Below are positions 5,907 to 21,349 of a stretch of DNA of 36,093 nt, piece by piece. The notes beneath the pieces are model-generated. The model searched no databases. It was not told the DNA's origin and saw only the letters and a list, made by a program, of their open reading frames with translations. Location of the stretch: contig JANWZQ010000146.1 in NCBI GenBank assembly GCA_025054835.1, forward strand, positions 1 to 36,093, given 5' to 3'. This DNA is from Chthonomonadaceae bacterium (GTDB lineage: Bacteria; Armatimonadota; Chthonomonadetes; Chthonomonadales; Chthonomonadaceae). A program made the position numbers and the translations under genes. How positions within the stretch are numbered: position 1 is the stretch's first letter; the number at the start of each line of letters is the position of its first letter.

Positions 5907-7133
5907 TCAGATTTCCCAGAGGATCAGCGCGTCGGCATCTTTGATCAGGATGCGCCGTCCGCTGAACGCGGGGCTGGCCCAGGTTGGACTATCCGCCACA
6001 CGGTAACGCGCTACCTCGGTCATTCCGTTGCCCTGTTTTCTCCATACGAGCAGATCGGCCCCGGTTGTTAACGCGATCAGGCAGTTACCGGCCCAGAAGA
6101 CCGCGGCATTTTCGCCCATACGCCCCGAATTGGTCCAGAAGACCTGGCCCGTTCCGGCGTCCAGCGCGAACATCTGTCCGCTACGCCGCTCCGTCATTCC
6201 ATAGATGGTCTGTCCGACGGCTACCGGCGTGCTCATGTACAGGGTAGCATCGCGGGTCTGCCATGTGCGGGCGACCTGCCATCCCGCGCCCGCTCGCACC
6301 ACTTTCACGGCAAACGTGGGTTGCTGTGTTCCCCCGAAGATCACGCGATCCCCGACCACAACGGGCGTCACGCAGTTCTGATCGTACGGAGTTGTGAAGG
6401 GCAGGCTCCAGAGCAGACGTCCCGTGTCCGGGTCCAGTCCCACGCACCGACGCTGCGTCTGCGTAATCAGCATGTTTGTGCCGCCGAGCGCAGCCAGTAC
6501 CGGCGAGGCATAGGCCGGGCCGTCCCCACTCCACTTCCATCGCACCTGCCCGGTCCGGGCGTCAAACGCGGTCAGTGCCCCCTGATCGTGCCCCCCCACA
6601 TGCACGATCACCATACCGTTGTACACCAGAGGCGAAGCAGCCACGCCATACAGCGGGGAGGTCTTCGTGTACTGGCCAGAGAAGTCGCGTTGCCAGATCA
6701 CGCGCCCGGTGCCGGCATCGAGTGCAGTCAGCCGACCGTTGATGCCGAACGTATAGAGTCGCCCCTCCGCATACGCCGGTGTGGATTTCGGCCCTTTGCC
6801 ATGCCCGGTCGCTGCCGGGTTCATTTCATAGGGTGCGGGATAACTGTAGCGCCAGACCTCCCGGCCATCCCCCAGGCGCAGGCAACGCACCACTTCGTTC
6901 TCCCCCACACGCGCGAAGACGAAGGCACTCTCACCCACGATGAGGGGGGACGCATGCCCGCTTCCTACCGTTACTTTCCAGCGGCGCTTCAGCTGCCCCG
7001 GCCACTGCATCGGGATCTGGAAACCCGGGACATGCCCGTTGCGATCTGGCCCACGCCACTGATTCCAGTCGGCCAGCACTCCCGGGGTAGCGCCCACAGT
7101 CAGAAAGCATGCAAGCCAGAATGGCCTCCACAT
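5907..7133 (-). CDS. Secreted PQQ-type beta-propeller protein with WRGP N-terminal motif
   Basis: 408 aa. A signal peptide (hydrophobic residues about 4-20, probable cleavage after GVLA) is followed at once by DWNQWRGPDRNGHVPG, the N-terminal motif common to exported propellers of Planctomycetota, Armatimonadota and Verrucomicrobiota. Blade motifs recur along the chain (ALDAGTGRVIWQRD, AFDARTGQVRWKW, GLDPDTGRLLWSL, ALDAGTGQVFWTN), each ending a strand with the tryptophan-docking pattern. It probably folds as a seven- or eight-bladed propeller in the periplasm or outside the cell. A near-perfect ribosome site (AAGGAGG, 7145-7139) precedes the ATG. It follows the alcohol dehydrogenase by 39 bp, which suggests cotranscription. 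Function unknown. Confidence 0.86.
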   Translation of the reverse strand: MWRPFWLACFLTVGATPGVLADWNQWRGPDRNGHVPGFQIPMQWPGQLKRRWKVTVGSGHASPLIVGESAFVFARVGENEVVRCLRLGDGREVWRYSYPAPYEMNPAATGHGKGPKSTPAYAEGRLYTFGINGRLTALDAGTGRVIWQRDFSGQYTKTSPLYGVAASPLVYNGMVIVHVGGHDQGALTAFDARTGQVRWKWSGDGPAYASPVLAALGGTNMLITQTQRRCVGLDPDTGRLLWSLPFTTPYDQNCVTPVVVGDRVIFGGTQQPTFAVKVVRAGAGWQVARTWQTRDATLYMSTPVAVGQTIYGMTERRSGQMFALDAGTGQVFWTNSGRMGENAAVFWAGNCLIALTTGADLLVWRKQGNGMTEVARYRVADSPTWASPAFSGRRILIKDADALILWEI

Positions 7134-7172: not shown

Positions 7173-8354
7173 TCAGTCACACACGTTCAGGGCCGCACGG
7201 TAGAGAGCAATGAAGTCCTCCGGAAAAATCGGGCGCGGGTTGAACTGCGCGGTCCATTGCCGGGCGGCCTCCTGCGCCAGCATCGCGATGGACGCGTCGT
7301 CAACGCCGTATTCTCGCAGCGAAACGCGCATCCCTGCAAGGCTCAGCATGGCATTCAACTCGGCCACCAGAGTACTCACTGATTGCGCAGGATCCGCAGA
7401 GCGTTCTGCCTTCCCTGCAACACAGAGCAGATCATGATAGAGCGCCCGGATTTCTGGTTGTTGCGCGTTAAACCGGACCACATGGGGGAGCATCAATCCG
7501 ACTGCATGACCGTGCACCAGATGGTAGCGTGCGGTGAGAGGGTTAGCCGCCGAGTGCGCCGCGCCAAGCATACTGTTCTCGATCGCAACGCCCGCGAAGG
7601 CCGCGCCCAGCATCACATGTGCCCGTGCCTGTAAGTCCTGCGGGGAGGTCAGCACACGAGGGTAGTACGTGATCAGGCGACGGAACGCCTCGCGGGCGTA
7701 GAGCGCACTGAACTCGTTCCGCCGGGTAGTCACTGCGGTCTCAACGGCGTGCACTATGGCGTCCATGCCAGTGCATGCCGTCACTCGATGCGGCTGCGAA
7801 ACGGTCAGCGTCGGGTCCAGCAAGGCGATCCGGGGAGCAGCCTTCGGGTCGCCGCACGCCATCTTCTGATGCGTTTCCTCATCCGCAATAAGCGCGAACG
7901 ACTGACACTCGCTGCCGGTTCCAGCCGTAGTCGGCACCGCAATGAGAGGAAGCATCGGCCGGGTTGCCTTGCCCACACCCCAGTAGTCCTGCATGCGCCC
8001 GCCGTTGGTTAGCAGGAAGTTACACCCCTTGGCCGTATCGAGACTGCTGCCGCCCCCCAGCCCGATGATCGCCTCGATGCGGGCATCACGCGCTACGGCA
8101 AGGCAGTTGTCCACATCACGCGTGGTCGGGTTCTCTCGAACACCGTCGAACAGTACAACCTCAACGCCAGCGGCCGTCAGAATGTGTTGCGCGCGGTCCA
8201 CATGACCTGCCGCCACAATACCCGGATCTGTCACCAGCAGAACGCGTTTTGCCGGCAACTCCCGCGCCAGCTGGCCGAGACGATCCAGTGCGTTGAAGCC
8301 GAACACGATCCGGGTGCGCGGCCAGGTGTCGAACCCGATAATCTCACTTTCCAT
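7173..8354 (-). CDS. Iron-dependent (class III) alcohol dehydrogenase
   Basis: 393 aa, the usual family length. It interconverts an alcohol and an aldehyde with NAD(P). The nucleotide-binding GLGGGSSLDTAK lies at about 98-109 and the family signature VPTTAGTGSE at 140-149. Predicted metal ligands are D198 and H202 (GMDAIVHAVE), H267 (GAAHSAANPL) and H281 (YHLVHGHAVG). Family members act on ethanol, butanol, propanediol, lactaldehyde or long-chain alcohols, and the substrate cannot be read from sequence. It lies between a MarC gene (43 bp upstream) and a secreted propeller (39 bp downstream), and close to an acyl-activating enzyme and an acyl-reductase-like protein. That context favours the aldehyde/alcohol step of a carboxylate-reduction route. 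Confidence 0.9.
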   Translation of the reverse strand: MESEIIGFDTWPRTRIVFGFNALDRLGQLARELPAKRVLLVTDPGIVAAGHVDRAQHILTAAGVEVVLFDGVRENPTTRDVDNCLAVARDARIEAIIGLGGGSSLDTAKGCNFLLTNGGRMQDYWGVGKATRPMLPLIAVPTTAGTGSECQSFALIADEETHQKMACGDPKAAPRIALLDPTLTVSQPHRVTACTGMDAIVHAVETAVTTRRNEFSALYAREAFRRLITYYPRVLTSPQDLQARAHVMLGAAFAGVAIENSMLGAAHSAANPLTARYHLVHGHAVGLMLPHVVRFNAQQPEIRALYHDLLCVAGKAERSADPAQSVSTLVAELNAMLSLAGMRVSLREYGVDDASIAMLAQEAARQWTAQFNPRPIFPEDFIALYRAALNVCD

Positions 8355-8397: not shown

Positions 8398-9027
8398 CTA
8401 CGCCGTCCAGAGAGCGCGCACCCCCTTCACGATAGCCTCGGCAGCAACAGCGATCAGAATGAGCCCCATGACGCGGGAGAGGATGTTGATCCCCGTCTGA
8501 CCGAGCGCGTTACCGATGGGCAGCGCCATGCGCAACGCTCCGTAGCAGACCGCTGCGATGAACGCGACTACTCCGATGACGAGCAGAATGTGTGGCCAGA
8601 ACGGCCCGGAATCGGCCAGCAGGATCACAGAACCAATCGCGCCCGGACCGGCCAGTTGGGGCAACGCCATCGGCACAATCGCAATCTCCTGACGTTGCGA
8701 GGCTTCCTCCACCTCCTCGGGTGTCTCCCGGCTCCGACTGATGCGCGCGTTCAGCATGTCCATCCCCATCAGCAGGAACAGCACGCCCCCTGCCACCCGG
8801 AAACTGGCCAGACTGATCCCGAACATCTGCAACAACCACTTGCCCGCCAGAGCCGCTACCGTAAGAATAAGAAAAACGGCGAGAGCGGCTGTGCGCGCCA
8901 TTTGATGGCGTTGCCACGCCGGCTGTTGCTGCGTCAGTCCCAGAAACACCGGGACGGCTCCAATCGGATCCACGACAACCAGCAGGGAAACCACCGTTTT
9001 CAGCAACGCCGGCAGCTGTTCGAGCAT
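8398..9027 (-). CDS. MarC-family integral membrane protein
   Basis: About 209 aa with six hydrophobic helices. The first carries VVSLLVVVDPIGAVPVFLGL, the MarC (UPF0056) signature, and a second copy of the fold starts near AIVPMALPQLAGPGAIGSVI, the family's pseudo-repeat. Despite the name, the transported substrate of the family is not established. I chose ATG 9027 because CTGGAG lies 6 nt upstream and the protein then starts MLEQLPALLKT; a GTG at 9042 would add five residues and overlap the neighbouring gene's stop. It sits 20 bp after the aldehyde dehydrogenase-like gene and 43 bp before the alcohol dehydrogenase, so it is probably in the same transcript. It might export a product or by-product. 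Confidence 0.87.
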   Translation of the reverse strand: MLEQLPALLKTVVSLLVVVDPIGAVPVFLGLTQQQPAWQRHQMARTAALAVFLILTVAALAGKWLLQMFGISLASFRVAGGVLFLLMGMDMLNARISRSRETPEEVEEASQRQEIAIVPMALPQLAGPGAIGSVILLADSGPFWPHILLVIGVVAFIAAVCYGALRMALPIGNALGQTGINILSRVMGLILIAVAAEAIVKGVRALWTA

Positions 9028-9047
9028 TGCGTGCTCCAGCACTCCGA

Positions 9048-10472
9048 TCAGGCCGCACGCTGGATGGAACGGCGTCGATACAGAAACTCAAACATGTTGC
9101 CCTCGTGCGGCTGGTTCCATTCCACCCGGGAAGTCGGCAGGGGTCCCAGGTTCAGACGCTCGATCTGCGGCGAGGCGAGCAGTTGTTCGATGAATTTCTC
9201 ATCCTGCGTGATTGCGGTCACCACCAGCGAGTACCCCATCTGCTCCACCATCTGCTCCTGCGGTATCTCTACCACGCTGGCATAAGGGAACAGAAACTCT
9301 CGATTGGCCAGCGGATGCGCCATCGACTGGCAGCGGATCAGGGTGGGCAACAGATAGGTACTTCCCTCCATGGTGACCCGGCGTGGGCCGCGGCGGTACC
9401 GCGCTGTGACGTCCTCCGCACCGGGAGTCTGCAAGCCTTCTGTGATGGCGTTATCGATAAATTCAGCCATCTTCACGCTGGCAAAGCCTGCGAGCGCGGC
9501 GCGCTCATCCGTTGCCGGAAGGGGCTCGATCTGCGCCAGGCGTTTTGCCAGCGCGTCGGCCAGCGCGTCGGCATGGCGTGGCACCAGCACGGCAGAGGCG
9601 TTGATGCAGCTGCGTCCCCCATTATCCGCGATGGAGGCCACAATCACATCCACGAACTCTTCCCAGCGATCGACCATGTCCGCACCGATAAGCACTTTGC
9701 TCCAACCCGGGCCATGCACCTGCACGCCGGGGTTACCGGCGTAACGCTCCACTGTTGCCTGGTCGCCGAAGATCAGGGAGCGTCCACACACCTCCATTAC
9801 TGTGGCACTGCCCTCATGATCGGTCGGATAGAAGTAGAACGCTTCCGGGGGACATCCAGCGGCCAGAAACGCCTGAATGATCCGGAACGGGGTCCACGGC
9901 TCTTCACGCCCCGGCTTCAGCACCACAGGGATTTTGAGCGCGACAGCCGGCATCCAGAGTGAGTTGACTCCCGGAGAGTTGCTCGGCAACACCACGCCCA
10001 GTGTGCTGGTAACCGCATAGTAGCTGACCGGGACTCCCGCCTGCTCGCCATAGCCACGATCCAGCACACTCAGATCCATGCCCCGCGTCAATCCCGCAAG
10101 AATACGGTCCATCTCGGTGAAGACCTGATAGATCTTCTGCATGTTCCTGCGCACCAGCGTATGTGGCAGGCCACTGGTTGCAGATAGCTGCTCCACGTAC
10201 TCCTGCGGGCTCTGGGTCTGCCCCGGTCCCAGAGGCAGCGTACCCTCCATGAACAACTGTCCGGCCTCTTTACACAGGGCGATCATGCGTGCCATGGGCA
10301 CAGCACGCAACACCTCCCGGGAGGGGCGGCGCAGGTCCCGCCGGATCAGGCCGGCATTGGCATGATGCACCTGTGCCACGCTCTCACCAGTACGCACGCT
10401 CTTCAGTTCCACCTTCTCGAGGCTCTCGTAGACCTGACCTCGACGCAGTATCGGAATATCGGGTAAGGACAT
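9048..10472 (-). CDS. Aldehyde dehydrogenase-fold acyl reductase (LuxC-like), lacking the usual catalytic Glu
   Basis: 474 aa of the NAD(P)-dependent aldehyde dehydrogenase superfamily. The oxyanion segment is TLGVVLPSNSPGVNSLWMP (about 157-175), the cofactor-binding strand is IPVVLKPGREEPWTPF, and the catalytic Cys is C289 in NGGRSCINASAVLVP. At the place where hydrolytic enzymes carry the general base in ELGG, this protein has HGPGWSKV, so that glutamate is absent, as in CoA-acylating aldehyde dehydrogenases and LuxC-type reductases. This suggests it reduces an acyl thioester to aldehyde, or does the reverse. A LuxE/PaaK-like activating enzyme lies immediately upstream and an alcohol dehydrogenase downstream. 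The chain-length preference is unknown. Confidence 0.8.
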   Translation of the reverse strand: MSLPDIPILRRGQVYESLEKVELKSVRTGESVAQVHHANAGLIRRDLRRPSREVLRAVPMARMIALCKEAGQLFMEGTLPLGPGQTQSPQEYVEQLSATSGLPHTLVRRNMQKIYQVFTEMDRILAGLTRGMDLSVLDRGYGEQAGVPVSYYAVTSTLGVVLPSNSPGVNSLWMPAVALKIPVVLKPGREEPWTPFRIIQAFLAAGCPPEAFYFYPTDHEGSATVMEVCGRSLIFGDQATVERYAGNPGVQVHGPGWSKVLIGADMVDRWEEFVDVIVASIADNGGRSCINASAVLVPRHADALADALAKRLAQIEPLPATDERAALAGFASVKMAEFIDNAITEGLQTPGAEDVTARYRRGPRRVTMEGSTYLLPTLIRCQSMAHPLANREFLFPYASVVEIPQEQMVEQMGYSLVVTAITQDEKFIEQLLASPQIERLNLGPLPTSRVEWNQPHEGNMFEFLYRRRSIQRAA

Positions 10473-10608: not shown

Positions 10609-11706
10609 TCAGTAGACCCCTTCGATTGTCTTGTGCTCCAGTGCGCCAAAGGGCCGTACTTCGCCCACGCCGTCCCACGGGAAGCGCTCATGCGGCCCGC
10701 GCCGGATCGCCTCATCACGCTCCAGGAAGCGGGGCATGAAGAACTCTTTTGTCAACGTTGTCAGCTCCACACGCCCCCACGCGCCATATTCCACGGTGCG
10801 CGCGGTGTCATCCGGGTCTACCACACGCAACACGGCACGCGGTTGCGGCGCGTGATAAGTGATGCTATAGTTGTCTTCCGGGGTCAGAGGCCGGCTGCAC
10901 GCCAGTCCCATCAACGTGTTGCCATAGGTCGGGACGAACTGCGCACGGTTCTGCAGCACTTCTTCTACCAGGAAACGCACTGTCTGCGGATTCATCTGCG
11001 TGCCCCCGCAGAACACCCCGGTGATCCCTGCGTCCGGCACGCTGATCTTTTCATCCAGTGCCTCCAGCAACAGGGGCGTGGTGAAGAGACAGCTGATCTT
11101 GCGATGCTTCAGAATGGTCACTCCCTGCTCCACCACATGTTCCTTGTACCGGCGCGCCGTGTCGAAGTCCTTCTCCGCGATGAGCCGCTTCACCCAGCGC
11201 GGATCCAGGTCCACATGATAGCAAACTCCTCCACGATAGTGCGCCAGGTGCTCGATCGCCAGACGCAGACGGCGCGGGCCTGTCGGCCCCAGCATCAGCC
11301 AGTTCCCCCCGCGGGGGAAATAGCGATCGTCCAGCGTGTCCGAGAACTCCTCGTAGTCCCGTTTGTGGTCCTCCCAGCCAATACGTTGCTTGGGCATGCC
11401 GGTAGTGCCACCTGTCTCAAAAATGTAGTAGGGCCGCCCGGCATACGCCTTTGGCACCCAGACTTCATTGGGCAGATCGCGTAACCATTCGTCCTGAAAA
11501 TGAGGGAATCGGGTCAGATCTGCGTACGAGTGTATTTCCTCCCGGGGATCCCATCCAGCTTTTGCTGCCCATTCCAGCCAGAACGGACATCCCGTCTCCG
11601 GCGAGAAGTGCCAGGCAATGATCTCGCGCACATGCGCATCCAGTTGTTCCTGAGCGGCCCGCACCGCTTCCGGCAGGACCTGTTCGCTCACCATCGTCAT
11701 ATCCAT
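10609..11706 (-). CDS. LuxE/PaaK-like acyl-activating (adenylate-forming) enzyme
   Basis: 365 aa. The ATP-binding loop is YIFETGGTTGMPKQRIGW (about 95-112), FTTPLLLEALDEK and FCGGTQMNPQTVRFL match PaaK/LuxE core motifs, and the A5 position is PTYGNTLMGLA. Full-size phenylacetate-CoA ligases are about 430-440 aa with a C-terminal lid domain; this protein is about 70 residues shorter, close to the length of LuxE acyl-protein synthetases. It should form an acyl-AMP from a carboxylic acid and pass the acyl group to a thiol. The ATG at 11706 has AGAGAGG just upstream; an upstream frame extension to 11748 has no family match. With the downstream reductase it resembles the LuxE-LuxC pair of bacterial fatty acid reductase. 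The true substrate is unknown. Confidence 0.78.
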   Translation of the reverse strand: MDMTMVSEQVLPEAVRAAQEQLDAHVREIIAWHFSPETGCPFWLEWAAKAGWDPREEIHSYADLTRFPHFQDEWLRDLPNEVWVPKAYAGRPYYIFETGGTTGMPKQRIGWEDHKRDYEEFSDTLDDRYFPRGGNWLMLGPTGPRRLRLAIEHLAHYRGGVCYHVDLDPRWVKRLIAEKDFDTARRYKEHVVEQGVTILKHRKISCLFTTPLLLEALDEKISVPDAGITGVFCGGTQMNPQTVRFLVEEVLQNRAQFVPTYGNTLMGLACSRPLTPEDNYSITYHAPQPRAVLRVVDPDDTARTVEYGAWGRVELTTLTKEFFMPRFLERDEAIRRGPHERFPWDGVGEVRPFGALEHKTIEGVY

Positions 11707-11781
11707 GCTGCCTCTCTTTAAATCACAGAACCACTGGCAGGAAGGCACCTGCGCCCTCTGCTCCCGGTCCGTTCTACGCTC

Positions 11782-13506
11782 TCAGACACCGGTTTGCTGC
11801 GCATCGCGCCGGGGCGGAAAATACTTGTCGATAGTCGCCTGACCGGGCGGAGGCGTTAGCAGAGACACCACGATCATCAGAACCGCCGAACCGATCACCA
11901 TCGGGAACACCGGGAGAAAACCGTATACCGTTACGTTCACCGGCCCGCGCAGGAACAGATCGCCATACTGCGGGAAGATCTGTACGGGCTTGATCGGGCG
12001 CGCCCCGCCCGCAGGAGCGTTCTGCTGTGCGCCTGTTGCTCTGGAAGAAGTTGCGCCGGGGCCGTTGACTGGTTCCGAGCGAGCCAGAGCGGGGGTACCG
12101 TCTCTCTGCGCCACCACAGGCCGTACTGCGGGAGCCGGCGGTCTGGGGGCGATCGGATCCGAGATCGTCTGCAGATACCAGTTCAGGCCCATACAACCGG
12201 TGACCCAGAGTGCAGCGGCCAGCGCTCCCCACTTGGTGCTGCGTTTCCAGAACAGTGCGGCCAGCATGATCGGAGAAAGTGCAGCGAAGCCAGAGAACGC
12301 GAAGCGAATGGCCAGCTCGAAGATCCCGGCCCTGTCCTTCAATTTCAACGCAACCCAGTAGGAGACCAGCGCAATCAGCACGATGAACAATCGCCCGGCC
12401 CAGACCTGCATCCGATCGCTGAATCGCTCCTTGCCCCCGTAGTAGGCAAACAGGTCTTCCGAGAAGATGGTGCTGAGCGCCAGGATCTGGCTGTCCGAAG
12501 CCATCACGCAGGCCATGATCCCCGCACCCAGTATCCCCGAGAGCAGTGGCCCCACGTTGGCCGTCAGCAACCGGATGATGATATCGTCTGACTCCCCCGG
12601 CCCCAGCCCGGGGAACAACGCAGCGCCCACCACACCCAGATACACCGAGGGAGCCCAGATCGCGATGATGCAGAGGGGATACCAGATAACTGTCTTCCGG
12701 AAGTGACTGATCCGCTCCGCCGTAAGGCACATGATAGAGATATGCGGGAACATAATGGCCGACAGCGGAATGAACATGTAGCTGAAGAACTCCTCGGCCG
12801 ACATTCGGTCGCGGGCCAGCAGGGATGCCGTGCGCGGATTGGAAGCCAGCTGCTGCATGATCGAGCCGAATCCACCGATGCTCTGTGCCAGCAGAATGAA
12901 CGCCAGTGTGCCGAAGCAGAGGAACAGCACGGTCTGGAACGTGTTGACCCACGCTGTGCCCCGCATCCCGCCAAAGAACACATAGCTCATGACCACCACA
13001 GCAACCAGTGCGCCCCCGAACTCATAGCTCACCCACGTGCGCCCGTTGACCGTACTGATCGCCTCCAGCGTCTGCCCACCTCCCATCACGCCGATAATGA
13101 TGTAGGGCACCAGCATCGCTGCTGTGAGCACCGAAATGAACGTGCCGATCCCCCCCGCTTCCCACCGGTCACGCAGGAACTGTACCTGTGTCATGTGACC
13201 GTGCTTCTTGCCCAGCGCCCAGAGCCGGGTACCGATGAAAAAGATCGTTAGCGGGATCACCATGGCCGAAGAAGAGGCCATCAACCCGAGCACACCGATA
13301 CCCTGCCGGTACGCCAGCCCGGAAGAACCGAGAATGGCGAACGCTGTCATGTTGGTGCCGAACAGGGAGAGCAGAAAGACGTATGGCCCCAGCGAGCGAT
13401 TGGCCAGAAAAAAGTCCTCACCGGACTCCTTGCCCTTGCGGAAGGCAAAGATACCGATGTAGAGCACGATGGCCAGATAGATGAAGACGATGATTGCAGG
13501 GTTCAT
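11782..13506 (-). CDS. Sodium:solute symporter (SSS family) with Pro/Ala-rich insert
   Basis: 574 aa with about 13-14 hydrophobic helices typical of SSS transporters, which couple solute uptake to sodium. The N-terminus (FIYLAIVLYIGIFAFRK...GEDFFLANRSLGP) and the segment LGSSGLAYRQGIGVLGLM match the family core; the helix near ILGAGIMACVMASDSQILALSTIFSED is the conserved helix 8 region. A roughly 60-residue low-complexity Pro/Ala/Gln-rich insert (about 450-512) separates the last two helices. The first codon overlaps the upstream small membrane gene by 4 bp (ATGA), so translation is coupled. The solute is not inferable; the adjacent acyl-activating enzyme suggests a carboxylate. Confidence 0.88.
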   Translation of the reverse strand: MNPAIIVFIYLAIVLYIGIFAFRKGKESGEDFFLANRSLGPYVFLLSLFGTNMTAFAILGSSGLAYRQGIGVLGLMASSSAMVIPLTIFFIGTRLWALGKKHGHMTQVQFLRDRWEAGGIGTFISVLTAAMLVPYIIIGVMGGGQTLEAISTVNGRTWVSYEFGGALVAVVVMSYVFFGGMRGTAWVNTFQTVLFLCFGTLAFILLAQSIGGFGSIMQQLASNPRTASLLARDRMSAEEFFSYMFIPLSAIMFPHISIMCLTAERISHFRKTVIWYPLCIIAIWAPSVYLGVVGAALFPGLGPGESDDIIIRLLTANVGPLLSGILGAGIMACVMASDSQILALSTIFSEDLFAYYGGKERFSDRMQVWAGRLFIVLIALVSYWVALKLKDRAGIFELAIRFAFSGFAALSPIMLAALFWKRSTKWGALAAALWVTGCMGLNWYLQTISDPIAPRPPAPAVRPVVAQRDGTPALARSEPVNGPGATSSRATGAQQNAPAGGARPIKPVQIFPQYGDLFLRGPVNVTVYGFLPVFPMVIGSAVLMIVVSLLTPPPGQATIDKYFPPRRDAQQTGV

Positions 13507-13748
13507 CCCCGGGGATCCTCATCCGTGTGGTGTGCCGTCAGGTCCATGGTCTCACGTTCCAGATCATGCGGCCAAGCATACCGGACCAGAACCGCCATGG
13601 TGAATGAGGCCAGAAAAGCGTAGCCGATGTGATAGGCCAGGCCAACAGGAATGAAGCCCAGTACCAGAGACTTGTTGGTCCAGTTCCAGAGATCATGGTG
13701 CAGTGCCAGAACCACCAGCACAAAGACCGTGAGCAGGAAAGTTTTCAT
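13503..13748 (-). CDS. DUF3311-like small membrane protein, symporter partner
   Basis: 81 aa with two hydrophobic helices (MKTFLLTVFVLVVLALHHD and VGLAYHIGYAFLASFTMAVLV), a WNW...GFIPVG link and an acidic, His-containing tail (TAHHTDEDPRG). Small proteins of this kind, annotated as DUF3311, are commonly encoded just ahead of SSS symporters and are thought to be accessory subunits. Its stop overlaps the symporter start by 4 bp, which supports a one-to-one partnership. The start at ATG 13748 gives a clean membrane-protein N-terminus; a much longer upstream frame (to 13919) has no membrane or family features and crosses a terminator-like hairpin. Confidence 0.72.
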   Translation of the reverse strand: MKTFLLTVFVLVVLALHHDLWNWTNKSLVLGFIPVGLAYHIGYAFLASFTMAVLVRYAWPHDLERETMDLTAHHTDEDPRG

Positions 13749-13772
13749 GAGTGGCGTTACTCTCAGAGGAGA

Positions 13773-13791
13773 GTCCCGGGTATCCCGGGAC
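13773..13791. other. Perfect palindromic hairpin upstream of the symporter pair
   Basis: GTCCCGGG-TAT-CCCGGGAC has 8-bp perfect arms and a 3-nt loop. It lies 25 bp upstream of the DUF3311-like start and could be an operator or an mRNA leader structure. Confidence 0.35.
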
Positions 13792-13805
13792 AGGATCGGA
13801 TCCGG

Positions 13806-13856
13806 AAAAGAGCCCCGGGCGTCCTTCAGGGGCAGAGAGGACGGAAGAACGCCCGG
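13806..13856 (-). terminator. Candidate Rho-independent terminator after the four-propeller block
   Basis: On the minus strand, CCGGGCGT (13856-13849) pairs with ACGCCCGG (13822-13815), with an inner GTCCT/AGGAC pair, and is followed by GGCTCTTTT (T4 at 13809-13806). It lies between the end of the propeller block (stop at 13891) and the symporter unit, and probably divides the run into separate transcripts. Confidence 0.5.
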
Positions 13857-13890
13857 AGCAGAGCGGATCGTCAGGACGCAGGCCCTGTTC

Positions 13891-15603
13891 TCAATACACC
13901 CGCTGTCCTCGTGCCTCATACCCCGGGCAGAGTGCGCGACGTAGCCAGCCCTGCCGGGTCACCTGACTGTGCCTTCCACACTCACATCGTCCCTGCGTTG
14001 CCGTGCCAGATTTCGCCAGCATCGGACGCCCTGCGGGCACCGGGGCAACCGGGCGCGACGCACTCTGCGCGGACTGCTTTGTGCTGATTGCGTACAGGTG
14101 TGTCTGTGTGGCGATGTAGAGCGTGCCATTGGCGACCACGGGAGAGGAGTAGACCGGGGCGCGCATATCCACGCGCCGGATCTCCTTCAACGTCCTGTCC
14201 GCTGCCAGGATCACGATGTCTCCATCCTCGGTACCCATGTAGACTTTGCCGTCTACCACCAGCGGACTGCCCCAGATGTGGCTCTTCGTATCGAAGACCC
14301 AGTAGGGCTTGCCGGTATCCGCATCCAGGCAATGGATGTACCCGCTGAAATCGCCCACGAAGACCATACCGTTCCAGATCGCCGGTGTAGAAAGCGAGCG
14401 TCGGATCCCGTCATACTGCCAGATCGGCTTCCCGGTGGCGGCATCCAGGCAGACGAAGTTCCCCAGCCCCTCGCCATGCTCCGGATCCTGACCGATGGGC
14501 ACATAAACTCGATTGTTGAAGAAGACCGGCGTGGCGATCACTTCGCTCGGCCCGTCGTAGGTAGCGTACTTGAGCGGCTTCCCGTTCTTCATGCGGTAGT
14601 GCGGCGGATTGCAATCGAAGCGCCACTTTTCAATCAGCACGTCACGCCCATCTTCCGACTTCTTCGTCCGGGTCTCAAACCCGTAGAGCCAGCCGTCACC
14701 ACCACCGAGAATGATCAACCCTTCGCCATTCACCACACCGTACGCCGGAGATGACCAGTTGGAATGCAGCGTGCGTGCTGATACCCCGGAGGCCTCCTCA
14801 CCCACCAGCTTACCCGTGTGCTTGTTGACCACGCAGAGTGCCGGGGCCTGCGGGTTGGGAATGTTGGTGTGTGTCCAGTCCACCCCGTTGCTGGTGGTGA
14901 CTACCACCAGATCGCCCGCGATGAGTGGCCCACAGTTGGTGATGTTGTGCGGGAATACCCCGAGCTCCTCACGCATATCGAACCGCCAGATGATATCCGC
15001 GTCCGTCTTCTGCAGGGTCACAGGGGGCTTACCGGGGCCAGCAAGATACTGCGCCTCGTTCTGGAACTCGCCGTCGTTGCCATTGGCCAGGCCCTCTGTG
15101 TCCAGACACATGATCTCATTGCGATTGGTCACAATGTAGACCCGGTTCCCTTCCACAGCCGGCGAAGAGCAGAGTCCGAGAAATTCCCAGTCGCTGACCT
15201 TCCCGGTGCCCAGCTTGGGCACAGCCAGTTGCCAGATCAGCTCTCCGGTCTTTTCGTCCAGGCAGTAGAGAATGCCCCGATCTCCTTTCTTGGTCGGGTC
15301 TCGCGGGGATTCATTGTTGGTACCCACGAAAACCTTTCCGCCGGAGATCGTCGGGTTGCCATACGTCTGTGAGCCGAGTTTGGCGATCCACCTGATGTTC
15401 CGCGTAGTCGCCATATCGATCTCTTCACTGTTCTCTTTGTACTTCCCGGGATCGAAATCGTCCGGGATACCCGTCTCGTCCGACACCATGTTGCGCGAGC
15501 TGTCTCGCCCCCAGAAGGGCCAGTCAGCCGCCCAGCCAGAAGTCGCCAGAGCCCCCAGAGCAACCCATATAACGAGGCCGAGACGTCCTGTATTCCTTTT
15601 CAT
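13891..15603 (-). CDS. Large secreted PQQ-type beta-propeller protein with unusual Cys-containing tail
   Basis: 570 aa. A signal peptide (MKRNTGRLGLVIWVALGALA, probable cleavage after SGWA) precedes ADWPFWGRDSSRNMVSDETG, a variant of the WRGP motif. The propeller blades are longer than in the sister proteins and carry insertions. Typical blade ends include YCLDEKTGELIWQL, VCLDAATGKPIWQYD and HCLDADTGKPYWVFD. The fold ends near residue 502 (LYAIS). The remaining 68 residues are Pro/Ala/Ser-rich, then basic with CEC and one more Cys, unlike a propeller. The ATG at 15603 has GGGCGGAG upstream. It lies 14 bp after the next propeller gene. No enzymatic residues are recognised. Confidence 0.83.
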   Translation of the reverse strand: MKRNTGRLGLVIWVALGALATSGWAADWPFWGRDSSRNMVSDETGIPDDFDPGKYKENSEEIDMATTRNIRWIAKLGSQTYGNPTISGGKVFVGTNNESPRDPTKKGDRGILYCLDEKTGELIWQLAVPKLGTGKVSDWEFLGLCSSPAVEGNRVYIVTNRNEIMCLDTEGLANGNDGEFQNEAQYLAGPGKPPVTLQKTDADIIWRFDMREELGVFPHNITNCGPLIAGDLVVVTTSNGVDWTHTNIPNPQAPALCVVNKHTGKLVGEEASGVSARTLHSNWSSPAYGVVNGEGLIILGGGDGWLYGFETRTKKSEDGRDVLIEKWRFDCNPPHYRMKNGKPLKYATYDGPSEVIATPVFFNNRVYVPIGQDPEHGEGLGNFVCLDAATGKPIWQYDGIRRSLSTPAIWNGMVFVGDFSGYIHCLDADTGKPYWVFDTKSHIWGSPLVVDGKVYMGTEDGDIVILAADRTLKEIRRVDMRAPVYSSPVVANGTLYIATQTHLYAISTKQSAQSASRPVAPVPAGRPMLAKSGTATQGRCECGRHSQVTRQGWLRRALCPGYEARGQRVY

Positions 15604-15617
15604 CTGTTTCTCCGCCC

Positions 15618-17924
15618 TCACGCGTTGGGGGTGACCGAAATGTTGTCGATATAGCACCGGAACAGGCTCTGTGGTGAGAAGCCGAACAGCCCGGGTGCCC
15701 CCTGTTTATGTACGTTTTTCAGTGCCACCTCGATCGTCCACTTCTCCGGCTCGGTCTCGCCTTTACGCCAGGCCTTGGCGCGCACCACACCACTGCCGTC
15801 CGGGTTCGTATCTACCCGGGTTTTCAGGCGATACCAGACCTTCGGCTCGATGGGGAAGGGCACCGTTGCCTTGATCCGCTCCTGATTGGAGTTCACCTCC
15901 AGCTGATTGGCATTGCCTACCAGCACAATGTAGTACCTCTGGTTCACCAGCCCCACAGTGGACCGCGTACGACGGTTGCCATCTGTCATCACGTCGGCCT
16001 CGAACGTGTAGTTCTTCGCCTCCGGGTGCCCGAAGAAGACAGTAGCACGCTGGAAAAAGATGTTGTCCAGCGTCTTGGCCAGTACTTTATTCCCGTCGAT
16101 CTCCCGGACATCGAATTTGAAACGCGCACCGATCCATGGCAGTGGCGGGTAGGCGAACTTACCGTCGGGCGCGGTCTCCGTTAGCTCAAACGCCTCGAAG
16201 TCCTCCTTCAGAGGCAGGTCCGGCAGTACTCGACCACGGATCACGCCTTTCGCGTTGCCGTAGCTGGCCTGCCATGCGCCTGCGCTCGGCACCTGCGCCC
16301 GATCCGCAACCAGTTCGCCCTGCGCGTTAAACGAGGCATTCATCTCGGAGCGCACACGGGCCGTCGGCGGGATGTACCGGGACCACGTGACTCTGGCAGG
16401 ATCGATGTTCCCTGTCGGGAAGCCGTTGGCGTCCACCCCCCGCACTGTGAAACGGACCTTCTGCCCGGGACGCAGCGTGACCTCTGCCGGCAGGATCTGC
16501 AACGCTGCAATCGGGCCGGGCTTTGGATACTCCGGTTCCATAGTGGATCGGGGCAGGCCAGGATTGTTACCCTTGCGGCCGAAGCAGTAGAGTTTCTCTG
16601 TGCTGAAAACGTAGACCTTGCCGTTCCACACAGCCGGGGCGCCAATACACCGCCCCGCCAGCTGCACGTCCGAGAGGACTTCTGCTCCGTCCTCTTTCGG
16701 GCGGATCACAAAGAAGTGTCCATTCTGAATGGGAATGTACAGCTTACCATCCGCGTAGGTAGGCGAGGCGTGCAACTGATCCGGCCCCAGTCGATGCTCC
16801 CACAGAATGCGTCCTGTGCTGGCATCCACCGCACAGAGGAAGCCGATCTTGTTGACCTGGTAGATCCGATCACCAACCAGCACCGGCGAGCTGGAGATGG
16901 AACCCAGACCGTTGCGCCAGACCTCTGCGCTGCGGTCCAGCGTTGGAGGCAATCCGTCTGCCCCCGGCTTCGGCGTCGCATCCGCACGCAGCGCGGTCAT
17001 CCGCCCCGAGTCAGACGAGTCCAGATTTTCATCTGCATGAATAGAGATGACCTTCCCTTTGTGGACGAGGACTGAGGCGTTCATGCCCCCGGCAGAGATC
17101 GGGTATCGCCAGATCACTTCCCCGGTACGCGCGTTGGCACAGATGACCGCACCATCGCCCGTACCGGTGTAGAAGACTCGCTTGCCCTCTCGCCAGTCGA
17201 AAAACGGACGCGCGAAGACGTTGTCTTTGGGTGGCGCTCCCGGGCTGCAGGACCAGACCAGATGCCCGGTCTTCTTGTCATAGGCGTAGAGGCGGTCCTG
17301 TGCGGCTCCTTCACCTCCCCAGTTGGAGGTGATCCCGCGTACAATCACCAGATCCTGCTCAATGGTCGGCCCGCCGGTGCGTCCATTGGTGAACGTCAGG
17401 CGGCCCAGCTCTTCCATCAGGGAGCGTTGCCACAGGATCTTTCCGTCCGCGTTGCAACAGACGAACACCCCGGCCGACGTGAGGGCGTAGACGTTACCGG
17501 TTTCGGCATCGATACAGGGGCTTCCGATCGCGTAGCGATCGTAGGTGATGTCGCTGAGAAAATCGCTGAACCGGTGCTGCCAGATCAGGCGGCCCGTTTC
17601 GGCGTCCGCGCAGAAGAGCACTTCCTGCAGGTCCGGCCCCTGCCCCTGATAGCCCAGACCGTAGAGACGTCCGTTGGCGATCACCGGCGTTCCCCCTCCG
17701 GCCATATCCATGGTCCAGAGCAGGGAGCCATTGCTCAGGTCGATCCTGTCGGGCAGGCCGGTCTCTCGCGAGACACCGGTCTGTTCCGGACCACGCCAGT
17801 TCAACCACCCCGTCGCCCGGGGTGCGCGGCGGGCTGTATGCGAGGCGGACTGCGCCCCCAGCAGCAGTCCAATGCCTGCCACAACCGCGCCCACCACAGA
17901 CAGAACACGATACGCTTTTCTCAT
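15618..17924 (-). CDS. Exported beta-propeller with C-terminal Ig-like and lectin-like domains
   Basis: 768 aa, the largest propeller here. A single N-terminal hydrophobic segment (about 5-25) acts as signal or anchor, then GWLNWRGPEQTGVSRETGLP, the WRGP motif. Propeller blades run from about 45 to 450, with a vicinal pair C156-C157 (GVFVCCNADGKILW). Residues about 470-565 look like a bacterial Ig-like domain (LQILPAEVTLRPGQKVRFTV). From about 568 to the end is a concanavalin/LamG-like sandwich (EDFEAFE ... YTFEADVMTDG ... YRLKTRVDTNPDG ... FRCYIDNISV) of the kind that binds sugars. It may therefore be a surface or periplasmic carbohydrate-associated protein. It starts 10 bp after the upstream propeller gene. 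Confidence 0.83.
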   Translation of the reverse strand: MRKAYRVLSVVGAVVAGIGLLLGAQSASHTARRAPRATGWLNWRGPEQTGVSRETGLPDRIDLSNGSLLWTMDMAGGGTPVIANGRLYGLGYQGQGPDLQEVLFCADAETGRLIWQHRFSDFLSDITYDRYAIGSPCIDAETGNVYALTSAGVFVCCNADGKILWQRSLMEELGRLTFTNGRTGGPTIEQDLVIVRGITSNWGGEGAAQDRLYAYDKKTGHLVWSCSPGAPPKDNVFARPFFDWREGKRVFYTGTGDGAVICANARTGEVIWRYPISAGGMNASVLVHKGKVISIHADENLDSSDSGRMTALRADATPKPGADGLPPTLDRSAEVWRNGLGSISSSPVLVGDRIYQVNKIGFLCAVDASTGRILWEHRLGPDQLHASPTYADGKLYIPIQNGHFFVIRPKEDGAEVLSDVQLAGRCIGAPAVWNGKVYVFSTEKLYCFGRKGNNPGLPRSTMEPEYPKPGPIAALQILPAEVTLRPGQKVRFTVRGVDANGFPTGNIDPARVTWSRYIPPTARVRSEMNASFNAQGELVADRAQVPSAGAWQASYGNAKGVIRGRVLPDLPLKEDFEAFELTETAPDGKFAYPPLPWIGARFKFDVREIDGNKVLAKTLDNIFFQRATVFFGHPEAKNYTFEADVMTDGNRRTRSTVGLVNQRYYIVLVGNANQLEVNSNQERIKATVPFPIEPKVWYRLKTRVDTNPDGSGVVRAKAWRKGETEPEKWTIEVALKNVHKQGAPGLFGFSPQSLFRCYIDNISVTPNA

Positions 17925-17934
17925 GATGCTGTAC

Positions 17935-19146
17935 CTACTGCCTGACATCCAGGCAGACCAGTGTGCCCTCTGCGTTGCGGCAGTAGATCCGCCCGTTGGC
18001 AAGTACCGGATGCGTCCAGCAGGTGCCATTGAGCACCCGGGCTCGTGAGATCTCCGTGAAGCGAGCCGGGTCCGCAGCGATCACCAGCAACTCGCCTCGC
18101 TCGGTCATAACCAGCAGCTTGCCATCTGCGGCAATCAGGCCCCCTTTGCCCATGCCACGCATCTGCCAGCGCACGTTGCCGTTCCGCGCATCCATACACT
18201 TGAGGGTGTTCTCGTCGTTGCCGTACAGAAAGCCGTTCACCAGAACACTGGCGTTGAAGTGATTGCGCATGTAGCGCGTCTGCCAGACCACAGACGGTCT
18301 GTTGCCCTGCAGTCGCAGTAGAGCACCCCCTTTGCCGTAGTTGGACGAGATAAACACGGTATCCCCGGCGATGACCGGATCCGCCGCGTTTACGTCGTAG
18401 CTGGTCTGCCAGGGGAACTCCCAGAGTTTTCGCCCGGTAGCCGGGTCCACCCCGATCAGGCCCGGCCCGGCGAAGATTGCCAGACCGCGTTGTCCGCCAA
18501 TCTGGTAGAGCACAGGAGTCGCGTAGCCCGCCTTGCCACTACCAGACTTCCAGAGCACGGCTCCGCTTCCCCGGTCCAGCGCCACACCGTGCGAGCCCAC
18601 GTTGTAGAAAATCCGGTTGCCATCCACCAGTGCGGACCCGGTGAACCCCCAGGAGGGAACCTGCGCCCGGGTCTCACGGCGCAGGTCACGCTGCCATTTC
18701 AACTTCCCCGTGTTCGCGTCCAGGCAGAAGGCCACGCCCTCACGACTGAGGATATGCAGGTCGTTCCCGTCCAGCACCGGTGAAGCCCCTGTACCGGCAG
18801 GGTACGGGTCGCCCGGGAAATCGCGAGAGGGGACCGGGTAACTGTACTGCCAGATCGTCTTGCCTGTATCGGCGTTGAGGCAGTAGACGAAATCACGATT
18901 GCCTCGATTGCCCGCGGTGTAAACCCGATTGCCCCGGACCGCAACGGCCGAGTACCCGGTGCCCACCTGAACAGACCAGAGCTGACGTGGAGCCCCTCCG
19001 GACCACTGCCAGCGCCATCCGGTCTCGTTCGTGATGCCGTTCTTCAGCGGGCCACGCCATGTCAGCCAGTCTCCAGCCTGCGCAGCCACGCTCACCATGG
19101 CCAGAGCGGCCCCCATGCCTGTCCGGAAAATCGCGTAACGTCTCAT
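17935..19146 (-). CDS. Secreted PQQ-type beta-propeller protein with WRGP motif
   Basis: 403 aa. The signal peptide MRRYAIFRTGMGAALAMVS is probably cleaved after VAAQA and followed by GDWLTWRGPLKNGITNETG. The blades show the usual docking pattern (YCLNADTGKTIWQYS, FCLDANTGKLKWQRD, GVDPATGRKLWEF, KCMDARNGNVRWQM). About seven blades fit the length. It is most similar in architecture to the 414-aa protein upstream (19166-20410), including a shared order of segments (a blade with GNDENTLKCMD here, GFDNNTLTCLE there), so the two look like duplicates. Gaps of 19 bp upstream and 10 bp downstream indicate one operon. Function unknown. Confidence 0.86.
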   Translation of the reverse strand: MRRYAIFRTGMGAALAMVSVAAQAGDWLTWRGPLKNGITNETGWRWQWSGGAPRQLWSVQVGTGYSAVAVRGNRVYTAGNRGNRDFVYCLNADTGKTIWQYSYPVPSRDFPGDPYPAGTGASPVLDGNDLHILSREGVAFCLDANTGKLKWQRDLRRETRAQVPSWGFTGSALVDGNRIFYNVGSHGVALDRGSGAVLWKSGSGKAGYATPVLYQIGGQRGLAIFAGPGLIGVDPATGRKLWEFPWQTSYDVNAADPVIAGDTVFISSNYGKGGALLRLQGNRPSVVWQTRYMRNHFNASVLVNGFLYGNDENTLKCMDARNGNVRWQMRGMGKGGLIAADGKLLVMTERGELLVIAADPARFTEISRARVLNGTCWTHPVLANGRIYCRNAEGTLVCLDVRQ

Positions 19147-19165: not shown

Positions 19166-20410
19166 TTATGGAGCCTTGATGTCGTAGCAGTAGAGCGTGT
19201 TCTGATCCAGCAGGTAGAGACGGCCGTTGGCGATCACCGGGTAGGTCCAGGTCGGGTTTCCAGAACGCTCTGGTTGCTCGAAGCGACCTTTCTCCACATA
19301 GCCCATCGGTGTAGCCTCCACCAGAGCGATCGGACCTCGCTCGCTTCGTGCGTAGAGATGGCCATCTGCGTAGGTAACCGAACCTTTGCCCACACTCCGA
19401 TCAGTCCACATCACCTTGCCTGTCTTGAACTCCAGACAGGTGAGCGTGTTGTTGTCGAAACCGTAGAGGTAGTCGCCGACCAGAACCATCCCTCCGTGAT
19501 GGTTCTGCATGCTTTTGGTGAAGTAGACCTGCTCGGCAACAGTGCCATCGGAGTTGCGCGTGAGCTTTGCCAGCCCGCCTCCCGTGCTGTAGGCGGATGC
19601 AGCGAAGACATGGTTATCCCGATAGATTGGTGTGGAGCAGTTCGCCACACGGTTAGCAGGGTTGTCGTAGCGCCACAGGAACTTCCCGGTTGCCGCCTCC
19701 ACCCCTACCACGCCACCGGCCATGAACTGAACATACTGCTTCTGGCCGTTCACGCTGGCAATAATGATCGATGAGTAGTGCGCCCGGTCGTTGCCGGGTA
19801 CTGCTGCTTTCCACACCACTGCGCCGCTGGCTTTGTTGAACGCCACAATTGCGGCGTCCTTGCCCCCGGGAGTCGCGATCACCAGGTTGCCGTCCACCAG
19901 CGGAGATTCGCTGTAGCCCCAGACGGGCACAGTTCCGCCGAAATCCTTGACGAAGTCCTGCTTCCAGATCAGGCGACCGTTCTTTGCGTCCAGACAGACC
20001 AGCAACCCACCCACGCCGAGCGCGTAGAGCCGGTCTCCATCCACGGTAGGTGTGCTCCGCGGGCCGTATCCCCCCTGCGCACCCTCCAGAGTGATCTTAT
20101 CCGCGATGGGTGTGTGCCAGACCTCTTTGCCGTTAGCGGCATCCAGAGCCCAGACAACCTCTTTATCGCCCCGCAACCCCATACCATAGATGCGTCCCTT
20201 CGCAACGGACGGGGTTGCATAGCCCTCGCCCAGTCCCGTCGCCTTCCAGAGGAGCTTTGGCCCCCCCTCGGGCCACTGCTTGAGCAGTCCGGTTTCACGG
20301 GAGATACCGTCCCGGTTCTCCCCGCGCCACTGCGGCCAGTCGGCTCCCTGAGCGACCATGCCTGCAATCGCTAGCAACGCCACGGACGTCACGTGAAGCA
20401 GCATTTTCAT
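19166..20410 (-). CDS. Secreted PQQ-type beta-propeller protein with canonical WRG motif
   Basis: 414 aa. A signal peptide (MKMLLHVTSVALLAIAG, cleavage near AQGA) leads into DWPQWRGENRDGISRETGLL and then WPEGGPKLLWKATGLGEGYATPSV, the fullest version of the WRGP-type N-terminus in the window. Blade ends include ALDAANGKEVWHT, CLDAKNGRLIWKQ, AFNKASGAVVWKA and GVEAATGKFLWRYD. This is the first of four propeller genes spaced 19, 10 and 14 bp apart, so it probably leads their operon; the 113 bp upstream should contain a promoter, but I see no clear boxes. An internal Met at codon 3 is an alternative start. No catalytic motif is seen. Confidence 0.87.
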   Translation of the reverse strand: MKMLLHVTSVALLAIAGMVAQGADWPQWRGENRDGISRETGLLKQWPEGGPKLLWKATGLGEGYATPSVAKGRIYGMGLRGDKEVVWALDAANGKEVWHTPIADKITLEGAQGGYGPRSTPTVDGDRLYALGVGGLLVCLDAKNGRLIWKQDFVKDFGGTVPVWGYSESPLVDGNLVIATPGGKDAAIVAFNKASGAVVWKAAVPGNDRAHYSSIIIASVNGQKQYVQFMAGGVVGVEAATGKFLWRYDNPANRVANCSTPIYRDNHVFAASAYSTGGGLAKLTRNSDGTVAEQVYFTKSMQNHHGGMVLVGDYLYGFDNNTLTCLEFKTGKVMWTDRSVGKGSVTYADGHLYARSERGPIALVEATPMGYVEKGRFEQPERSGNPTWTYPVIANGRLYLLDQNTLYCYDIKAP

Positions 20411-20523: not shown

Positions 20524-21282
20524 TTATTCCTGCGGGCACCGTGAGGCGTCCAGCACGCCGCTATCGAGCGGTATGCCGCACCCCTCCACGCGATTCACAT
20601 AGGCTCCGCCACTGGCCCCGATACGGTAGCGCCTCAGCTGCCGGCCGGGCCCCTGGAAGGTAAACTGCAGCGCCGTGCCATCCAGCACCGCCCGCACAGC
20701 CTTGCTGTGCCCATCCACGAAGTTCACACTGGCATGTTCGTTATGCCGCGCCTGGATCAGTTGCAGCTGTGCCTGAAACGTCGTATTGAAGGAAACATTT
20801 CCGTCGTAGGTCATGAACGTTTCCGCCGGGCGCGAGATCGCAGCAAGCGACATGGGCGCGGCCCCCGGGATGTAGCCGTTGACGAAAATCATGTGGTTGA
20901 TGGTGTAGCCGGTTCCGAAGGGAGAATTGGGGCAGGGTTGCAGCGGATTGAAGATCTGGCTCAGCACCAGAGCATTTCGCTCCGACGGGCACTGCATGAT
21001 CTCACCGTTTCTGACGTAGGGTGCCACTGCCCAGTAGAACGTGGCCACACACATCATCTCTCCCGGATAGGACGAGAAGGGGAATGCCTCATCGTAGTCC
21101 TGCACATACATCAGGGTAGCCGTCGCGTACTGCCGCGTGTTGCTCAGGCAGCTGGCCTGCCGTGCCTTCTCCCGCGCCTGCGCGAACACCGGAAACAGGA
21201 TCGCCGCCAGAATGGCGATGATCGCAATCACGATGAGCAGTTCGATGAGCGTAAAACCGGAACGATGGGAAACGCGTTGCAT
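20524..21282 (-). CDS. Prepilin-type N-methylation protein with H-x9-DG domain (DUF1559-like)
   Basis: 252 aa. The class III signal is [27 protein letters not shown]: prepilin peptidase should cut after Gly and methylate Phe. The next residues, [16 protein letters not shown], are typical of the large pseudopilin-like families in Armatimonadota and Planctomycetota. The C-terminal domain carries the H-x9-DG motif in [18 protein letters not shown] and several Cys, probably disulfide-bonded. Such proteins exist in dozens of copies per genome in these phyla and probably form surface or secretion-associated structures. ATG 21282 gives a short basic leader (MQRVSHRSG); an upstream frame to 21327 is less likely. 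It lies between the aldo/keto reductase and the propellers. Confidence 0.88.
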
Positions 21283-21349
21283 ACGGGTTTTCCTGTCCTC
21301 ACGTAGTGGGATGTTGGGCGCCTGCACAGGCAGGCTCCCTCAGAAGGTT

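Follow-up and report, generated by a model that had tools for sequence, protein, structure and literature searches.

The window analysed here, 36,093 nucleotides of contig JANWZQ010000146.1 of a Chthonomonadaceae bacterium (assembly GCA_025054835.1), carries on its minus strand a gene for a protein of 768 amino acids (aa) with a beta-propeller of the PQQ_2 family (PF13360). This gene shows strong conservation across three phyla, Armatimonadota, Verrucomicrobiota and Planctomycetota, and stands in an operon with further propellers, a transporter, an EhpF-like adenylating enzyme and two dehydrogenases. With moderate confidence its product is proposed to be a periplasmic ligand-handling part of a carboxylate-aldehyde-alcohol pathway. 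The proposal builds on direct observations of the protein family, of how it is conserved in the three phyla, of the genes around it and of its joint occurrence with the enzymes, and takes its chemistry from the families to which these enzymes belong. The surroundings of the gene are of more interest than the two features singled out in a first-pass annotation, a pair of adjacent cysteines and a lectin-like domain. To our knowledge, most PQQ-type (pyrroloquinoline quinone-type) propellers of such genomes have no known function; 35 PQQ_2 stretches were matched in the genome of the window. Tying one propeller family to defined enzymes by operon and by genome presence turns the label 'PQQ-like' into a testable pathway question. 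No publication on the gene cluster was found in a literature search, in which most subscription papers lay outside the coverage and the looser matches were judged by title and the start of the abstract.

Conserved gene neighbourhood

Neighbourhoods were compared for 80 loci, the best among 310 relatives found in the genome collection, which were selected through the 768-aa protein (50-72% identity) and by record title belong mostly to Armatimonadota, Verrucomicrobiota and Planctomycetota. The genes of the window run in the order propeller 6, propeller 5, the 768-aa gene, propeller 3, the DUF3311 protein, the symporter, the EhpF-like enzyme, the aldehyde dehydrogenase, MarC, the iron-containing alcohol dehydrogenase, propeller 2 and propeller 1 (Table 1). 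The same order, minus MarC and plus one extra propeller, was found on the Armatimonadota contig L031, and other contigs of this phylum carry parts of it. Propeller 3 was encoded within 3 kb downstream, on the same strand, in 70 of the 71 loci with 2 kb of sequence remaining, and is likely a partner of the 768-aa protein. The EhpF-like gene was located downstream in 54 of the 63 loci with 5 kb remaining. Ten of the 80 loci have a carrier of the major facilitator superfamily (MFS) after propeller 3, at the usual place of the symporter, and 43 of the 80 have a divergent MarR gene no more than 3 kb upstream.

A second module was seen in 12 regions that lie downstream of the EhpF-like gene, and its proteins were named from two of these regions; the counts given for it are lower bounds because BLAST clustering misses some copies. 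One cluster, found in 10/12 regions, combines a flavin enzyme of the Trp_halogenase family with a 208-aa protein that has no assigned family; the other recurrent genes encode a HemN-like radical-SAM protein (9/12, by our reading of the cluster), a PaaK-like ligase (8/12), a 4HBT-type thioesterase (6/12), a small membrane protein (5/12), a group 1 glycosyltransferase (4/12) and an FtsX-type ABC exporter, whose permease was seen in 3/12. In the genome G027 this module lies mostly on another contig, as do parts of it in G036 and G042. In the stretches fetched from the genome of the window and from G015 the flavin enzyme was the only module member seen, apart from a glycosyltransferase in the former.

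The 208-aa family (L124:5504-6127, plus strand, and relatives) gave no Pfam, NCBIfam or meaningful PDB match. Its identification as a chorismate lyase, suggested by eye, found no such match either and is not claimed here.

Co-occurrence and phylogenetic spread

The co-occurrence of the genes was followed in 61 genomes, comprising the genome of the window and 60 relatives. Full-length orthologues of the 768-aa protein were present in nine of the 61 (in eight of the 60 relatives, at 59-69% identity), and the remaining matches listed among the 60 relatives were confined to the propeller, with identity of 34% or less. The EhpF-like gene (E 1e-60 or better) was found in exactly the same nine genomes; in one of them the two genes are 0.7 Mb apart and in two they lie on separate contigs, possibly due to assembly breaks. 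Strong matches of the aldehyde dehydrogenase (8/61 genomes) and of the flavin enzyme from the second module (7/61) all fell inside these nine. As a control, a gene outside the operon was used (22671-24359, plus strand, with a Gly-rich C-terminal part), the first 380 residues of which match in 36 of the 61 genomes; of the 31 genomes in the same order, 30 are among these.

In a quick tree the 60 orthologues fell largely into groups by phylum: four label changes were counted, compared to a minimum of two for three groups and a mean of 19.2 after shuffling. L048 (Actinomycetota by title) and L044 (Abditibacteriales) were counted with Armatimonadota in the tree labels, and three rows belonged to no group. 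The 60-orthologue alignment does not hold all available sequences, contigs repeating a genome of the 61-genome search having been left out; L009, with an internal stop, was dropped from this alignment and from the one with rows L005 and L006 mentioned below. The phylum-wise grouping suggests that these lineages have probably had the gene system for a long time, some transfer aside.

Enzymes encoded beside the propeller

The adenylating enzyme and EhpF are related over their full length (E 3.7e-49 to 3hgu, residues 30-379 of 379). According to the published account, the enzymes EhpF to EhpO convert phenazine-1,6-dicarboxylic acid to D-alanylgriseoluteic acid, and griseoluteic acid carries a hydroxymethyl group (PMC3175449). 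An ehpF-ehpG pair, encoding AMP-binding and aldehyde dehydrogenase proteins, is annotated in another phenazine operon (PMC11278526). Here, too, an adenylating EhpF relative stands beside a gene of the aldehyde dehydrogenase family. Unlike the EhpF/EhpG system, the present one includes propellers, a transporter and an iron-containing alcohol dehydrogenase and belongs to different phyla; phenazine genes were not noticed near the EhpF-like gene.

The aldehyde dehydrogenase (9048-10472, minus strand) is an unusual, probably non-hydrolytic member of its family. Its nucleophile Cys was kept in 31/31 aligned rows, and His was found in 31/31 at the position of the general base Glu of KauB. Retention of the Cys together with replacement of the Glu base by His suggests acyl transfer over hydrolysis. 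Kinship with EhpF and a modified aldehyde dehydrogenase point to the series acid, activated acyl, aldehyde and alcohol, and judged by their families the enzymes seem capable of converting a carboxylic acid to the aldehyde and the alcohol.

Architecture of the 768-aa protein

The open reading frame (ORF) starts with ATG at 17924 and ends with TGA at 15618-15620. A structure was predicted with AF2 from the 60-orthologue alignment, replacing a version based on eight sequences with a predicted local distance difference test (pLDDT) value of 72; the predicted template modelling score (pTM) of the final model is given in Table 1. Eight four-stranded blades were assigned by us from DSSP of this model. 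The protein scored 117.1 bits against the PF13360 cut-off of 27.6, and 60/60 orthologues matched this family at E 1 or better. Judged from its N-terminal sequence, the protein is probably exported.

The propeller is followed by an immunoglobulin-like (Ig-like) segment and a C-terminal beta domain. Profiles built from these parts of the orthologues (residues 465-570 and 568-768) matched the 768-aa protein alone among the 24 proteins of the window, the next-best proteins reaching E 0.76 and E 0.61, respectively. The three-part architecture described in the first-pass annotation and the lack of both extra domains in the sister propellers were thus borne out, as was its statement that this is the largest propeller of the set: the other five propeller ORFs of the window encode 375, 408, 588, 403 and 414 aa.

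Propeller relatives and the question of PQQ

YxaL was first in a fold search with the whole model (Z 38.3 over residues 36-451), and BamB entries reached Z 30-35 over about residues 58-450. Both are PF13360 proteins and likewise eight-bladed (YxaL Z 37-38, BamB Z 30-35, 16-21% identity); the 768-aa protein differs from them by its two extra conserved domains and its position in a metabolic operon. Sequence and fold alike place BamB with the closest solved structures, and the 768-aa protein could in principle be a BamB-like scaffold for outer-membrane protein assembly whose link to the operon is incidental. This is highly doubtful, since the score against the BamB family TIGR03300 was 73.5 bits compared to the cut-off of 285.2, and orthologues occur in only nine of the 61 genomes and are tied there to the enzymes.

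Fourth in the Foldseek ranking (Z 31.8, about 20% identity) was a propeller enzyme from Acidithiobacillus ferrooxidans, the tetrathionate hydrolase, and this likeness indicates that propellers of this type can have enzymatic activity. The hydrolase is not known to use PQQ and differs by its sulfur chemistry; we know of no extra domains in it of the kind seen in the 768-aa protein.

The same likeness of fold extends to quinoproteins. The L-sorbose dehydrogenase 4mh1 aligned over 359 residues with Z 30.3 and a root-mean-square deviation (rmsd) of 2.6, a Z value within the range of the BamB entries, and a genuine PQQ-dependent dehydrogenase akin to the methanol/ethanol dehydrogenases, with PQQ at the propeller axis, would also agree with the aldehyde and alcohol dehydrogenases encoded nearby. 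This identity is nevertheless unlikely. The score against the PQQ alcohol dehydrogenase family TIGR03075 (47.5 bits) was one tenth of the cut-off of 480.05. In the genome, which is 97% complete, no PqqE above the cut-off was found (three matches, the best with 69 compared to 381 bits), a single PqqC-like match at a contig end, possibly cut off by it, had 48.9 bits compared to 240, and one PqqD-domain match exceeded its cut-off. The PqqD-domain match and the weak PqqC-like one would speak for PQQ, which might also be scavenged. Seen from its sequence, the propeller appears to be of PQQ type with no sign of PQQ.

Vicinal disulfide bridges are described in print as usual in bacterial PQQ alcohol dehydrogenases (PMC13384848). 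The cysteine pair C156-C157, noticed in the first-pass annotation, is present in the translated ORF, and the proposed link to the vicinal disulfide of methanol dehydrogenase was not supported. The 79-row alignment consisted of the window protein and 78 of the best 80 loci, L054 (326 aa, internal stop) and L092 (1308 aa) having been dropped. The pair occurred in 1/79 sequences, that of the window protein only; position 156 was Ala in 38, Cys in 26 and Gly in ten, and position 157 was Phe in 65, Leu in eight and Tyr in five. The predicted model has the pair at the end of strand 153-157, the third strand of blade 2, where it occupies the 'AL' of the usual G-x-L-Y-A-L-D-x-x-T-G repeat. Because this is a third strand, by standard propeller topology the pair would lie away from the propeller axis. 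A vicinal disulfide requires a bent backbone, so the regular strand found at this place is ill-suited to it. In view of how the pair is conserved and where it would lie, a vicinal disulfide near PQQ was rejected. Chance would give 0.12 adjacent Cys pairs in a 768-aa protein with ten Cys, and in the 24 window proteins two CC pairs were observed, the summed expectation being about 1.8. CC was found elsewhere in 11 of the 78 orthologues, and ten of these have it around residues 349-381 by their own numbering; in rows L005 and L006 of another alignment it stands beside C364 of the window protein, the equivalent place of another blade. The C156-C157 pair looks like a chance feature of one sequence.

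Two further families were tried and rejected, 'PLuB' for propeller 5 (15.5 compared to 250 bits) and 'Acido-empty-quinoprotein' (42.6 compared to 650 bits); no publication was found under either name.

Enzymes of the ACSF4/AASDH type combine an adenylation enzyme with a PQQ-type propeller. Propeller 1 of the window scored above the threshold of PF13570 (208.1 bits, cut-off 133), the ACSF4 propeller family, which takes its name from an adenylating enzyme, and is likewise encoded near an adenylating enzyme; unlike in ACSF4/AASDH the two are separate proteins here. The 768-aa protein stayed below the cut-off of this family, with 62.9 bits.

The C-terminal domain

The first-pass annotation had read the C-terminal domain as concanavalin- or LamG-like. 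Its 16 predicted strands are compatible with a jelly roll; by sequence, nothing for LamG rose over threshold in Pfam, PDB or profile-profile comparisons. The domain had no PDB sequence match, and the best Pfam family for the domain alone was PF14099 (Polysacc_lyase), with 13.4 bits for the window protein compared to the cut-off of 29.9 and sub-threshold matches in four of the 13 members tested (best E 0.0054). Whole orthologues gave weak matches to PF14099 in 4/60 and to Laminin_G_3 in 1/60 (E 0.13). An hhalign comparison with ten 3keto-disac_hyd and three Laminin_G_3 domains from the same genome gave no match; one of the four Laminin_G_3 domains, being below its cut-off, had been left out of this set. 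The same method did recover a stand-alone relative of the C-terminal domain (97.7%). LamG-named phage proteins appeared in the viral fold search with the whole model at an unusable rmsd above 30, and the lack of lectins in the whole-model fold list has little meaning, since the propeller dominates that list.

The stand-alone relatives of the domain are encoded at the end of the operon in three of the 12 downstream regions. They were the only ORFs of 1,366 above threshold (domain E 1.8e-12, 3.6e-11 and 3.8e-5), and one of them showed 26% identity over 179 residues by BLAST.

One alternative considered was that the domain, as a jelly roll of lectin type, anchors the propeller to a polysaccharide. 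The strand pattern, PF14099 as the best family, the glycosyltransferase gene in four of the 12 downstream regions and the LamG-named viral matches, for all their poor rmsd, would fit such a glycan-binding protein. This alternative is improbable given that known ConA-like domains gave no match over threshold and that neither a glycoside hydrolase nor a lyase was noticed among the genes that recur nearby. Moreover, the mean identity of the domain (0.74 in 60 sequences) equals that of the propeller loops and is higher than expected for a docking module.

Conserved loops and a candidate pocket

The loops of the propeller were compared in the 60 sequences, and positions with a polar or aromatic residue kept in at least 95% of them were counted. 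In the outer-to-inner-strand loops, which lead from one blade to the next, 16 of the 94 positions were of this kind (D121, S124, D125, Y128, R130, Y131, E171, R175, T177, F178, N180, R182, T183, D234, N282 and S345), the majority of them between blades 1 and 4, compared to six of the 107 positions in the other loops (W202, T142, N144, D392, K217 and T267); the comparison was picked after the data had been seen, and its Fisher P was 0.012. These counts make the idea of ligand contact by the 768-aa protein compatible with the data, and on the predicted model they suggest a pocket in the outer-to-inner loops. The case for the pocket is thin: the two whole faces are alike (17/133 and 5/68, P 0.34), and the short A-B loops on the other face have a higher mean identity, 0.81 over 19 positions, than the 94 outer-to-inner positions with 0.74.

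Proposed role of the 768-aa protein

In the proposed pathway the EhpF-like enzyme would adenylate a carboxylic acid in the cytoplasm, and the aldehyde dehydrogenase, without its hydrolytic base, would convert the activated acyl group to the aldehyde or catalyse the reverse reaction. The iron-containing alcohol dehydrogenase would interconvert aldehyde and alcohol, and the symporter, or the MFS carrier in some loci, would transport the acid or the product. More tentatively, the 768-aa propeller and the neighbouring propeller 3 may bind or oxidise the pathway compound outside the inner membrane, possibly in a pocket that loops of blades 1-4 would form; delivery of the compound is a further candidate role. 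An aromatic acid, or a derivative of one, is perhaps the compound handled. A PQQ dehydrogenase, a lectin or a BamB-type scaffold is less likely than such a periplasmic part of a pathway. The first-pass annotation had suggested that the protein might be the carbohydrate- or substrate-contacting member of the propeller set; ligand contact is compatible with the present data, and the role of the set is better described, by neighbourhood and co-occurrence, as part of a metabolic gene system.

Several observations weigh against this proposal. The EhpF-like gene was not found downstream in nine of the 63 loci with 5 kb remaining, and in loci with 9.5 kb the aldehyde dehydrogenase and the alcohol dehydrogenase were present in 28/51 and 25/51, respectively, in a sample of 80 loci that was itself picked through the 768-aa protein. 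The co-occurrence would arise with a chance of 6e-11 for the EhpF-like gene and 8e-8 for the flavin enzyme if the genomes were independent, which they are not, since three of the nine share a genus. Of the seven flavin-enzyme matches, four reach just 41-47% identity, and that genus accounts for three of these four; the E-value limits for the EhpF-like enzyme, the flavin enzyme and the aldehyde dehydrogenase were chosen by us. Export is read from the sequence, and a ligand or an activity of the protein is proposed on indirect grounds. The pathway may run in either direction, and the word 'aromatic', applied with a perhaps, goes back to the EhpF kinship, the MarR neighbour and the types of ligase and thioesterase.

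A very remote variant is that the gene set makes a small aromatic redox factor of its own. The factor would arise from an acid by activation, reduction and modification by the flavin and radical-SAM enzymes and would then be exported; the 'empty' propellers outside, the 768-aa protein among them, would be the enzymes carrying it. This would amount to a self-contained quinoprotein-like system with a cofactor other than PQQ in three phyla.

Feature coordinates and minor observations

Table 1. Features of the operon and of the 768-aa protein (positions in the window)
Feature	Position	Strand	Basis and remarks
Propeller 6	19166..20410	-	PF13360
Propeller 5, directly upstream of the 768-aa gene	17935..19146	-	PF13360; also upstream in Armatimonadota loci
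768-aa protein: propeller, Ig-like segment and C-terminal beta domain	15618..17924	-	ORF; PF13360 117.1 bits; AF2 model pLDDT 89.7, pTM 0.90
Probable signal peptide region, residues 1-36	17817..17924	-	Hydrophobic N-terminus by sequence reading; helix 8-25, low pLDDT
Eight-bladed propeller, residues 58-451	16572..17753	-	Predicted model; strand 68-72 closes blade 8
Codons of C156-C157, third strand of blade 2	17454..17459	-	ORF, alignment, model
Ig-like beta segment, residues 465-572	16209..16532	-	Nine predicted strands; no Pfam match
C-terminal beta domain, residues 568-768 (~200 residues)	15621..16223	-	16 predicted strands, high pLDDT
Propeller 3, next gene downstream	13891..15657	-	PF13360; listed ORF, likely start ATG at 15603
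DUF3311 small membrane protein	13503..13919	-	PF11755 31.0 bits, cut-off 30
Sodium:solute symporter family transporter	11782..13506	-	PF00474 146.7 bits
EhpF-like adenylating enzyme	10609..11748	-	EhpF 3hgu E 3.7e-49, residues 30-379
Aldehyde dehydrogenase family protein	9048..10472	-	PF00171; Cys289 kept, His253 at usual Glu base
MarC membrane protein	8398..9042	-	PF01914; not among recurrent neighbours
Iron-containing alcohol dehydrogenase	7173..8354	-	PF00465
Propeller 2	5907..7133	-	PF13360
Propeller 1	4766..5893	-	PF13570 208.1 bits, cut-off 133 (ACSF4 propeller family)

In propeller 3, the final ~50 residues of the ORF (13891-14046, minus strand) are uncovered by most orthologue matches and overlap the ORF of the next gene, reflecting either an extension or a frameshift. 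Upstream of the propellers, at 20524-21327 on the minus strand, a pseudopilin-like DUF1559 protein is encoded, and such a protein occupies the same place in three of nine Armatimonadota regions.

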